33,452 bases of DNA from Deltaproteobacteria bacterium (GTDB lineage: Bacteria > Desulfobacterota > Dissulfuribacteria > Dissulfuribacterales > Dissulfuribacteraceae). The notes beneath the pieces are model-generated. The model did not search any database, was not told where the DNA came from, and saw only the letters and a list, made by a program, of their open reading frames with translations. The translations under genes were made by a program, and so were the position numbers. Where the stretch lies: the NCBI GenBank assembly GCA_015494155.1, contig WGBU01000049.1, positions 1 to 33,452 on the forward strand, in the 5' to 3' direction. Below, one piece after another: positions 1 through 24,933 of this stretch (its first letter is position 1; every line of letters begins with the position of its first letter).

Positions 1-154
1 CTCCCATGCCATACCTCTGGTACAGTTTGTAAGCCACCGGATCGCAGTGATGTACAGGGGAGAGGTGGTAGAGACACTGTTGCCCGGAGAGCCCCCAAGA
101 CACCCCTATACCAAGACCCTGATGGCATCTGTGCCCAGGATCGAGTTATGCTAA
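1..154 (+). CDS. Oligopeptide-type ABC transporter ATP-binding protein, C-terminal end (partial)
   Basis: The frame that opens at base 2 runs 50 codons to a TAA at 152-154. It reads as the end of an OppD/DppD/DppF-type ATPase: SH (H-loop) at the left edge, then RIAVMYRGEVVE, then RHPYTKTLMASVP, the conserved join between the nucleotide-binding domain and the C-terminal region. In the family this ATPase energises import of peptides or nickel at the inner membrane. Most members continue for several dozen residues after this motif with the oligopeptide C-terminal region (a Cys-rich FxPRCP-like segment). Here the protein stops five residues later (RIELC), exactly where the sequence turns A+T-rich. 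I infer that the gene may have lost its 3' end to the island that follows, although short NikE-like members exist. The start lies outside the window. Confidence 0.8.
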   Translation, partial: SHAIPLVQFVSHRIAVMYRGEVVETLLPGEPPRHPYTKTLMASVPRIELC

Positions 155-158
155 AATA

Positions 159-251
159 AAGATTGATATAGATTTTAAAGGGATAGAGCTTTTTGATATA
201 GAAGCAATAACAGCAAAAAGATTTTCAAGAAAAATAGGAGCAATACAATGA
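159..251 (+). pseudogene. 3' fragment of an unidentified gene upstream of the RHH antitoxin
   Basis: An open frame of 30 codons from about 159 ends at TGA 249-251. That stop overlaps the ATG of the RHH gene (ATGA at 248-251), the usual stop-start coupling of a two-gene operon. The predicted tail begins KIDIDFKGIELFDIEA and ends RKIGAIQ. It has an A+T-rich composition like the RHH fragments and unlike the ABC gene just upstream. No start codon or ribosome-binding site is present, so it looks like the surviving 3' end of the partner gene of the RHH antitoxin, perhaps its toxin. I do not recognise the family. Confidence 0.4.
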
Positions 252-293
252 GTACATTAAGTGTTCGTTTGCCCAAATCACTTCATGATATAG
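248..293 (+). pseudogene. RHH (CopG/HicB-like) antitoxin gene, 5' part, cut by cassette insertion
   Basis: ATG at 248 starts MSTLSVRLPKSLHDI, the typical beta-strand and first-helix start of a short ribbon-helix-helix antitoxin. After base 293 (a G followed by TT) the frame runs into unrelated sequence and stops at TGA 314-316. The missing continuation lies 756 bp downstream at 1050. Joining base 293 to base 1050 gives ...SLHDIVKELSKEEGIS... in frame, which is what the family looks like at this point. The start codon overlaps the stop of the preceding frame, so the gene was probably the second gene of a toxin-antitoxin operon. As it stands only about 15 native residues can be made, so the gene is broken. 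Confidence 0.85.
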
Positions 294-312
294 TTATGTA
301 TCCAAAAAATGA

Positions 313-341
313 TTGATGCTTGCTAACAAATTTGTTATCAT
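313..341 (+). promoter_or_regulatory. Predicted promoter of the higBA cassette
   Basis: A -35-like TTGATG (313-318) and a -10-like TATCAT (336-341) are separated by 17 bp. Transcription would begin about base 348, the GTG start of the toxin, so the mRNA would be leaderless or nearly so. The TTG of the -35 overlaps the end of the broken RHH frame. Having its own promoter fits a toxin-antitoxin cassette, which is expressed independently of position. Confidence 0.5.
324..337. promoter_or_regulatory. Perfect 14-bp palindrome, probable HigA operator
   Basis: TAACAAATTTGTTA is a perfect inverted repeat lying between the -35 and -10 elements and touching the -10. HigA-type antitoxins repress their own promoter by binding such palindromes, so I infer this is the autoregulatory operator. 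The assignment rests on position and symmetry only. Confidence 0.6.
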
Positions 342-347
342 GAAAAT

Positions 348-680
348 GTGGATTGGCAGATTGAATACATTAATAGGAAAGTAGCTGAGAATATACTAAA
401 TTTTCCAGATGGAATATTAGCACGATATTTACGTTTAACTGATTTAATGATTGAGTTTGGTCCCAATCTTGGGCGTCCTCATACAAAATTAGTGGAGAAA
501 GGGCTCTTTGAATTAAGAATCAAAGCTCAAGAAGGCATCGCAAGAGTTTTCTTTTGTACAAAAAGAGATAGGAAAATCATTATGTTACATTCATATATCA
601 AGAAAACAAATAAAATTCCAAAAAGAGAATTGAAAATAGCTCAAAAGAGATTGAAAGAGGTTATCAACAATGAATCATAG
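348..680 (+). CDS. higB: HigB-like toxin (phage-derived Gp49-like, RelE superfamily)
   Basis: A 110-residue basic protein with the pattern of Gp49-like/HigB-2 mRNA interferases: DGILARYLRLTDLM near residues 22-35, then GPNLGRPHTKLVEKGLFELRIK, then ARVFFCTKRDRKIIMLHSYIKKTNKIPKREL. The GLFELR...RVFF...ILLHxFxKKxxKxPxxE layout is the family signature, and its basic residues lie in the RNA-cleavage surface. Members cut mRNA at the ribosome. The start is GTG at 348: an in-frame stop at 324 leaves no upstream ATG, and the -10 element lies 7 bp before it. The stop overlaps the antitoxin start by 11 nt. Toxin-first order is typical of higBA. It lies inside the integron-type cassette and is A+T-rich like the rest of that segment. 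Confidence 0.85.
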   Translation: MDWQIEYINRKVAENILNFPDGILARYLRLTDLMIEFGPNLGRPHTKLVEKGLFELRIKAQEGIARVFFCTKRDRKIIMLHSYIKKTNKIPKRELKIAQKRLKEVINNES

Positions 681-957
681 TGAATTAAAGGAATTAGCAT
701 TGAAAAGAGCCTCTGTAAATGAGGCATATGAGGCGTTAGAGCCTGAATTTACCCTCCTAAAGGATTTATTAAGGGCAAGGAAGAAGGCCGGTTTGACCCA
801 AGCGGAAATAGCTAAACGAATGGGAACTAAGCCTCCAGCAGTAACTAGGCTAGAATCAACATTAACATCAGGCAAACATTCACCATCGATAGCAACCTTA
901 AAAAAATATGCAAAAGCAGTAGGTTGTCGTTTGGAAATCAGGCTTGTTAATGAATAA
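670..957 (+). CDS. higA: HigA-like antitoxin, XRE-family helix-turn-helix protein
   Basis: A 95-residue protein. The helix-turn-helix spans about residues 36-60 (RKKAGLTQAEIAKRMG, then PPAVTRLES) and is followed by SPSIATLKKYAKAVGCRLEIRL, the classical end of a HigA/XRE domain. In the family it neutralises HigB by direct binding and represses the shared promoter. The reading frame begins inside the last codons of the toxin gene (11-nt overlap), so the two are translationally coupled. Its stop lies 13 bp before the attC R'' box, the tight packing normal for cassettes. The probable operator is at 324-337. Confidence 0.88.
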   Translation: MNHSELKELALKRASVNEAYEALEPEFTLLKDLLRARKKAGLTQAEIAKRMGTKPPAVTRLESTLTSGKHSPSIATLKKYAKAVGCRLEIRLVNE

Positions 958-970
958 TTGGATTTTTTTA

Positions 971-1049
971 ACATAACAAGTGGGTGCACTTGACCGCTAT
1001 TCCGCTGCGGCCTTCGGCCTTGCTCCATAGTGGCAAGTGACCCTGGACG
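971..1049 (+). repeat. attC recombination site of the cassette
   Basis: R'' is ACATAAC (971-977). The left arm pairs with the right arm as GGGT (982-985) with ACCC (1040-1043), CACTTG (987-992) with CAAGTG (1034-1039), and CCGCTAT (994-1000) with ATAGTGG (1027-1033, one G-T wobble). G986 and A993 on the left arm stay unpaired, matching the extrahelical bases that orient attC folding. The unpaired spacers are 978-981 and 1044-1048. A 26-nt terminal segment (1001-1026) contains a smaller GGCC-TTC-GGCC hairpin. The R' box is completed on the excised circle by G1049 plus TTATGT (294-299). In its present place the base after G1049 is TTAAGG of the target gene. Confidence 0.9.
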
Positions 1050-1239
1050 TTAAGGAACTATCAAAAGAAGAAGGAATATCAATTAAACAATTGATTATTA
1101 CTGCTTTAGCAGAAAAATTAGTGCTTTGAAAACAGTTGATTATCTAAAGCAGAAGGCTAATCAAGCTTCAAGAGAGAAGTTTTTAAAAGCATTAGATGAG
1201 GTACCAGATATTGAGTCTTTTGATAATGATAAAATTTAA
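1050..1239 (+). pseudogene. RHH (CopG/HicB-like) antitoxin gene, 3' part, also frameshifted
   Basis: This is the continuation of the fragment at 248-293. One frame reads VKELSKEEGISIKQLI then ITALAEKL up to 1120. The next frame (from 1120) reads SALKTVDYLKQKANQASREK and continues to FDNDKI and TAA at 1237-1239. One base is missing around 1117-1121, in a run of A and T. With that base restored and the cassette removed the product would be 78 residues, a normal length for these antitoxins. Two lesions, insertion and frameshift, mean the gene is dead. Whether the frameshift came before or after the insertion cannot be told from the sequence. Confidence 0.85.
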
Positions 1240-23982: not shown

Positions 23983-24933
23983 TTACCCCTTTTTTCCTTT
24001 TTCCAATGTGGAGGCCCCCTTCTTGGCCCCCTTTCCTGCCCTTGGATGGCACCTGTCGTAGATGGTGGCAAGGGCCGAGATCTCAAGGTGAGTATATCTC
24101 TGGGTAGTCTGTAGGCTAGAGTGGCCCAGCATCTCCTGGATGGCCCTAAGATCTGCGCCCGCCTCAAGGAGGTGGGATGCCATGGCATGGCGCAGGGTGT
24201 GGGGTGTACAGTGGGCAGAGACCCCTGACCGCAACCTTAAGGCCTTTATTAGACGCTGTACAGCCCTCACAGAGAGTCTTTCGCCACTTCGGTTCAAAAA
24301 GAGTGGTTGACTTGTGCCCTCTTCGGGAGCGCCCCTTTTGACCAATTCTCCACGCCTGGCCAGGTAAGACTTTAATGCCTCAATGGCCTTTTCCCCAATA
24401 GGCACGATCCGCTCCTTACGCCCCTTTCCCCTCACTTTGACTACTGTGAGATCAGTCGAGACGTCATCGAGATCAAGGCCCACGAGCTCACTCACCCTGA
24501 GGCCCGAGCTATAGAGTAGTTCACAGATCGCCCTGTTACGCAGTCCCAAGACCCCTTTTTTCTCGTTGGCCTCGATGATACAAAAGACGTCATCCACATT
24601 GAGATAGTCTGGCAGATTCGGGCGGTGCTTTGGTAGCCTCACCAATCTGGCAGGATTCTGGTCCACCATACCCTCTCTCTGTAGGTGGTCAAAAAAGGCC
24701 CTAAGAGAAGAGAGCTTCCTCGAAAGTGTTACGGGCCTTAGACCCTCCTTGGCCATATTGTAAAGCCATGCACGTATTGACTTCACATCAGTGGGCGTCA
24801 TCTTAGATGAGCGGACATATCCCAAAAAAGACTGTACATCTCTCACATAACCCCGTATTGTATGGGGTGAATAGTTCTTCTCACTCTCGAGGCTATTTTC
24901 AAATCCCTTAAGGGCCTTTAGGTAGTTTTTCAT
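23983..24933 (-). CDS. xerC: Tyrosine recombinase of the XerC/XerD family
   Basis: 316 residues. SAM-like N-terminal domain (about 1-95) and catalytic domain with R146 (SSGLRVSEL), K170 (VRGKGRKE), H245-x2-R248 (HTLRHAM), H271 (LGHSSLQTT) and nucleophile Y280 (QRYTHLE). It resolves chromosome dimers at dif with a partner Xer. The order recombinase-hslV-hslU copies the codV-clpQ-clpY operon of Bacillus. This is not an integron integrase: the stretch between the second and third catalytic boxes has no extra domain. It opens the ten-gene minus-strand run; TATATT stands 7 bp before the ATG but no good -35 is visible. Confidence 0.93.
   Translation of the reverse strand: MKNYLKALKGFENSLESEKNYSPHTIRGYVRDVQSFLGYVRSSKMTPTDVKSIRAWLYNMAKEGLRPVTLSRKLSSLRAFFDHLQREGMVDQNPARLVRLPKHRPNLPDYLNVDDVFCIIEANEKKGVLGLRNRAICELLYSSGLRVSELVGLDLDDVSTDLTVVKVRGKGRKERIVPIGEKAIEALKSYLARRGELVKRGAPEEGTSQPLFLNRSGERLSVRAVQRLIKALRLRSGVSAHCTPHTLRHAMASHLLEAGADLRAIQEMLGHSSLQTTQRYTHLEISALATIYDRCHPRAGKGAKKGASTLEKGKKG

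Follow-up and report, generated by a model that had tools for sequence, protein, structure and literature searches.

A solitary HigBA-type integron cassette within an antitoxin-type gene of a Dissulfuribacteraceae genome

What has happened at a chromosomal locus where a single attC site follows a pair of toxin-antitoxin-like genes and no integron lies nearby? Cassette insertion outside integrons has been demonstrated experimentally in E. coli, and besides such experimental insertions the familiar secondary-site examples are plasmid-borne resistance cassettes. Lone attC sites are often dismissed as false positives or assembly artefacts, and because they are discounted in this way, natural chromosomal records of non-integron insertion are hard to prove. 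The window, which is the whole stretch of DNA that was analysed (33,452 nt), is contig C49 of a genome (G000) with a size of 2.38 Mb and a completeness of 97.5%. It contains one attC site and no integron integrase within its 33 kb. To the left of the cassette lies the end of an ABC-transporter gene, and to its right a methyltransferase gene. The attC site and the cassette ends comprise the following elements:

294-1049, plus strand: integron gene cassette (756 bp) that entered as one unit (boundary rule, healed gene, sister cassette shared exactly over its length)
294-299, plus strand: cassette left edge TTATGT, which on the circle supplies the second part of R' (fold, R''/left-edge rule)
971-1049, minus strand: attC site, the bottom strand being presumed recombinogenic (independent model, fold, covariation)
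971-977, plus strand: R'' box ACATAAC (exact complement of GTTATGT at 293-299)
982-1000, plus strand: stem arm on the L'' side with extrahelical G986 and A993 (fold, sequence)
1001-1026, plus strand: variable terminal structure of the attC site, with an inner stem GGCC/GGCC at 1009-1012 and 1016-1019 (fold)
1027-1043, plus strand: stem arm on the L' side (fold, sequence)

Reading the stem from the sequence showed pairing of GGGT at 982-985 with 1040-1043, of CACTTG at 987-992 with 1034-1039, of CC at 994-995 with 1032-1033, of G996 with T1031 and of CTAT at 997-1000 with 1027-1030. As the preliminary description of this locus had proposed, two bases of the left arm are unpaired, which we find to be G986 and A993, and so are the two spacers, at 978-981 (4 bases) and 1044-1048 (5 bases). 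The bottom-strand fold that it had suggested, of 971-1049 plus 294-299 (an 85-mer representing the circular form, with the attC site and six left-edge bases), revealed a textbook attC shape of -17.3 kcal/mol (z -2.9) with a 7-bp R box, spacers, an L-type stem from which two bases protrude, and a terminal structure. The top strand of the 85-mer adopts the same shape and folds slightly better (-18.1 kcal/mol, z -3.5). The one wobble described for the inner arms holds for the top strand (G996.T1031), but on the bottom, recombining strand this position is a C-A mismatch; the attC copies on contigs C66, C21 and C83 of the same genome have a proper pair at the equivalent position. The exact complementarity of the R'' box ACATAAC (971-977) to GTTATGT at the cassette left edge was confirmed. 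The accompanying claim that GTTATGT exists only on the circular form had to be abandoned, as G293 together with 294-299 spells GTTATGT on linear DNA, which is its one occurrence in the 33,452 nt. Specific to the circle is the placement of GTTATGT beside the L' arm. The target copy at 1049-1052 also reads GTTA, so that only TGT, three of the seven pairs, discriminates at this site. Fold, covariation and an independent model agree on a conserved fold in which the spacers are unpaired and single bases are extrahelical, and the R'' and R' boxes are complementary, R' being divided between the cassette ends in the linear form.

For a fair test of the site we used a covariance model (R2) trained on 15 classical-array attC sites of other genomes, with zero sequences of the window's genome; an earlier model (R1) had contained the window's own copy. 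The array-only model R2 matched exactly 971-1049 (75.6 bits, E 7.6e-23) and detected no second attC site in the 33,452-nt window up to E 10. A low covariance score combined with an absence of homologous attC sites had been named in advance as evidence against the hairpin; the score was 75.6 bits, and homologous attC sites were found. Alignment of 40 related sites showed 90 compensated cells compared with 26 after shuffling and 89.7% of cells paired compared with 30-37% with slid partners, values that are biased towards the structure to which this alignment was fitted. Among 25 attC sites whose R'' box ends in AAC, 16 have the exact R'' complement in the 1,500 bases upstream; when R'' boxes were exchanged among sites in 20,000 permutation rounds, the count averaged 2.5 and reached 10 at most. 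In the window's family alone (three genomes), this match of R'' and left edge was present in 9/15 sites (permuted mean 1.6, maximum 8). The identical pair of a TTATGT left edge and an ACATAAC R'' box also occurs in one cassette of a classical, integrase-bearing array (G023:C58). A BLASTN search with the attC site against plasmid and phage records gave zero matches. The stretch 971-1049 is a genuine integron attC site.

Both ends of the insert have GTTA in common, so that the crossover can be placed only within G|TTA (293-296 and 1049-1052), with one shared base left of the cut and three to the right. The junction G|TT lies in a ribbon-helix-helix gene, in non-integron DNA, and agrees with the G|WT of attG sites; the target GTTAAGG departs from GTTRRRY at the last base. 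These ends also bear on the idea that another process (a transposon, a group IIC intron beside attC or illegitimate recombination) brought in an attC-like hairpin or terminator. Bacteria have many hairpins of this size, and the top strand folds no worse than the bottom one, but the target duplication is limited to the shared G|TTA, the right end of the insert is the exact attC crossover point and the left end fits the R'' rule. In addition, no transposase, intron or other recombinase was seen within 294-1049, and an Rfam gathering search of the window gave zero matches. We therefore consider such an origin barely credible.

The gene that was interrupted by the cassette is represented by these parts:

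147-251, plus strand: C-terminal relic resembling a PIN_3 toxin, tentative (17-residue match, E 4e-4; gene order in loci L060 and L062)
248-293, plus strand: 5' part of the host gene, encoding a ribbon-helix-helix antitoxin-type protein, to ATA G| (ungapped relatives)
1050-1236, plus strand: 3' part of the host gene, the joined frame resuming with TT AAG GAA (ungapped relatives)

Joining 293 to 1050 restored the frame of the ribbon-helix-helix protein, MSTLSVRLPKSLHDIV|KELSKEEGIS..., and eight related proteins with 44-63% identity aligned ungapped across the joint; the query was obtained by reading through the broken antitoxin-type gene and served for searching only. The joined gene contains a further frameshift and reaches a stop at 1127-1129 after 41 residues, and homology extends to 1236. 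In the relatives, the homologous antitoxin gene is preceded by a PIN_3 toxin gene, in identical order in L060 and L062. The PIN_3-like relic in the window seems to comprise only the last ~30 residues of the toxin and is a weak match. Since the joined gene is frameshifted and the toxin apparently reduced to a C-terminal relic, the target was, judging from the sequence, probably a module that was dead before the insertion or dying soon after it. A search via the methyltransferase neighbour in the family members G001 and G002 found no nucleotide-level empty site; the locus is not syntenic in these genomes, and the empty site is therefore known at the protein level only.

A refinement compatible with cassette insertion would be that the host gene was itself a former PIN/ribbon-helix-helix cassette whose attC site has decayed. 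Homologous antitoxin genes in L062 and L066 are followed by an attC site within about 16 bases, the stretch 146-1310 is AT-rich, its GC content being 27-34% outside the attC site and that of the flanks 56% and 51%, and two boxes look like cassette ends (GTTATGC, 145-151; ACATAAC, 1240-1246). However, the attC models detected no attC site after the host gene (1237-1376), the two end boxes agree at 6/7 bases only, and the insertion point lies inside the gene and not at an attC or attI site. We regard a cassette ancestry of the host gene as possible, yet on balance doubtful.

Further observations concern the surroundings of this gene. The second ACATAAC (1240-1246), located just past the host antitoxin gene, is followed by a 17-nt AT-rich inverted repeat (1255-1300). 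The end of contig C3 (L148) shares exactly 151 bases with C49 and stops after GTTATGC (145-151), at an oppF-like gene end; at this 145-151 boundary GC content falls from 56% to 29%. The end of the overlap may be a branch of the assembly graph, i.e. a variant junction, or else another, older edge of a cassette.

Within the cassette, we identified the following cargo:

313-341, plus strand: promoter-like TTGATG-17-TATCAT over the palindrome 321-340, putative (consensus scan and palindrome)
348-680, plus strand: toxin-like gene of the Gp49 / RelE-ParE family (HigB type), GTG start, 110 aa (Pfam PF05973, 94 bits)
670-957, plus strand: helix-turn-helix antitoxin-like gene (HigA type), 95 aa, overlapping the toxin gene (Pfam PF01381, 46 bits)

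The overlap of a Gp49/RelE-type toxin gene with a gene for a helix-turn-helix antitoxin is the layout of HigBA-type pairs, and the predicted products may act as a toxin-antitoxin pair; the NCBIfam toxin model scores the product of 348-680 under its cut-off. The promoter consensus scan gave a number of matches not above chance, and 313-341 is a possible own, self-regulated promoter of the pair. HigBA homologues followed by an attC site were found in L080, from a Desulfobacteraceae MAG, and in L143 (genome G036), with toxin identities to the window of 66% and 64% (the latter a partial match). A search within the order revealed no second copy of the exact window cassette; the best full-length HigBA relative there is 52% identical and a partial one 64%. 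The toxin alone is no evidence of a cassette, because its family is common on plasmids at <80% identity.

A search of the genome for an integron integrase revealed an uninterrupted gene on contig C60 (413 bits, cut-off 265). Its translation has all the catalytic positions (Arg, His-x-x-Arg, His, Tyr), and the nearest solved structure is that of IntI4 (2a3v). No array is visible on C60, which ends 395 bases upstream of intI. The window itself contains, at 24085-24897 on the minus strand, a tyrosine recombinase gene with sub-threshold integron-integrase matches of 70 and 57 bits; its product is probably of the XerC/XerD type.

Four further attC sites of the family are present in the genome, on contigs C66, C21, C83 and C58, and all five, the window's included, are solitary. 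The C66 site lies between what we take from the translations to be corA-like and phoH-like genes, and the C21 site between presumed hemA-like and hybrid-cluster-protein-like genes. Going by their translations, we assume that the genes which follow the C83 and C58 sites are hflX-like and splB-like, respectively. Toxin-antitoxin-type cargo is found in 4/5 of these lone cassettes, i.e. the HigBA type of the window, a Phd antitoxin with a PIN toxin on C21, a PIN protein with a small protein on C83 and an antitoxin-type gene with PIN_3 on C58/C155; the C66 cassette encodes an unknown membrane-type protein. A search for partner contigs joined C58 to C155 over 151 bases and gave none for C83. Scattered attC sites are also present in the family members G001 and G002.

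The sister cassettes bear on the alternative that the window cassette stems from a normal integron array and only appears solitary because a draft assembly split that array. Draft assemblies do inflate counts of lone attC sites (PMC9024848), an array could start where C60 ends, 395 bases upstream of intI, and C49 begins only 293 bases before the cassette. At the window locus this explanation is contradicted, as both flanks are contiguous non-cassette DNA on one contig and carry the two halves of one gene. The C66 and C21 cassettes likewise lie between ordinary genes on single contigs, and C58 continues into C155. We consider a split array very unlikely.

Movement as a discrete unit is documented for the sister cassette on C21, which is 91.5% identical over 722-1577 of L003 to a cassette in another family of the order (G025:C91). 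The match runs from the first cassette base (TTAGCC) to one base past the attC site, and the flanks are unrelated. For the window cassette the corresponding evidence consists of homologous gene pairs beside attC sites only.

Several observations on other loci of the lineage were made. In L003 (C21), a degenerate half attC (TTCGGCCTTGTCACGCAGCGGCTAGTGCCCCTGG) at 650-715 precedes the Phd-PIN cassette, as if a neighbouring cassette had been lost. L150 (320-693, C83) and L096 (245-619, G001:C57) share a cassette segment of 90.7% identity near an attC site. In one genus this segment precedes the hflX-like gene, in another it precedes a gene for an ABC ATPase, which places the same cassette at different loci. 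Three attC sites of G002 (L102 at 6411, L103 at 5839 and 9481) are followed exactly at the crossover point by TTGAGGCTG(T/C)AG and related DNA with an adjoining transposase-like gene, which suggests that an insertion sequence either uses attC sites as targets or has itself been captured in the form of a cassette. A near-perfect palindromic attC site follows a HigBA-type pair in L100 (2722-2799, G001:C115); the model matches both of its strands, and such a site should lack strand selectivity.

Taken together, we regard it as very likely that 294-1049 is a one-unit HigBA-type cassette inserted by an integron integrase at G|TTA outside any integron. The cassette identity put forward in the preliminary description is backed by the array-only model, covariation, the intI gene, the sister attC copies, the R''/left-edge rule and the ungapped host-gene relatives, and further by the C21 sister cassette shared across families and the HigBA homologues with attC sites. 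Against this reading count the lack of a same-locus empty-site genome and of a second locus, the slightly better top-strand fold and the misfit of GTTAAGG. According to the proposed mechanism, the cassette would have existed as a circle in which G1049 is joined to TTATGT (294-299), and the bottom strand of this circle would fold into the attC hairpin. An integron integrase, presumably that encoded on C60, would then recombine the hairpin with G|TTA in the ribbon-helix-helix antitoxin-type gene by a putative single-strand route, and the cassette may still be excisable.

The type of event is already known; as a natural example, this locus is unusually open to proof. Here a lone attC site can be proven base by base because left edge, R'' box and interrupted gene agree and the same pattern recurs at the sister loci. 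In any genome, comparing R'' with the left edge could serve as a simple way to tell true lone cassettes from false ones. What merits following is the lineage's scattered single, mostly toxin-antitoxin cassettes with GAT as well as GTT junctions. Right-hand junctions in arrays have GTT in 22/23 and GAT in 0/23 cases, whereas 9/48 solitary junctions have GAT (Fisher P 0.023; 0.033 without one duplicate), an excess that is suggestive, not strong; some of the solitary sites are weak model hits, which may dilute the contrast. The lineage provides a set for measuring natural attG preference (GTT vs GAT) and is also suited to asking whether toxin-antitoxin cargo aids the survival of lone cassettes. 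As a tentative and rather speculative idea, its integrase might act mainly as a scatterer that seeds single self-promoted toxin-antitoxin cassettes at GTT/GAT sites chromosome-wide instead of building arrays, the cargo hindering their loss.

Published work describes secondary and attG sites, recognition that is relaxed at the second base, and GAT as a site of cleavage (PMC10127599, PMC12901181, PMC12444791, PMC11200725); cassettes at secondary sites are credited to Recchia and Hall 1995 and Segal and Elisha 1997 as cited in PMC10127599, and insertion at attG sites is a subject of Loot et al. 2024 (doi 10.1038/s41564-023-01548-y). Like those insertions, the present one is a single cassette with an intact attC site outside an integron, at a G|TT junction (G|AT in sister cassettes) and interrupting a gene. 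In contrast to them it belongs to a natural, apparently old set with mostly toxin-antitoxin cargo in an uncultured environmental lineage. With SALINs, defined as single attC sites lacking an integrase (PMC12690207), the locus shares its one attC site and the lack of a nearby integron integrase; it differs in that an integrase is encoded elsewhere in the genome (C60) and may act in trans. The toxin-antitoxin cassettes of Vibrio sedentary chromosomal integrons, which have been proposed to stabilise arrays (PMC11023631), are likewise two-gene type II pairs, probably with their own promoter, whereas here such cassettes are scattered singly, outside any array.
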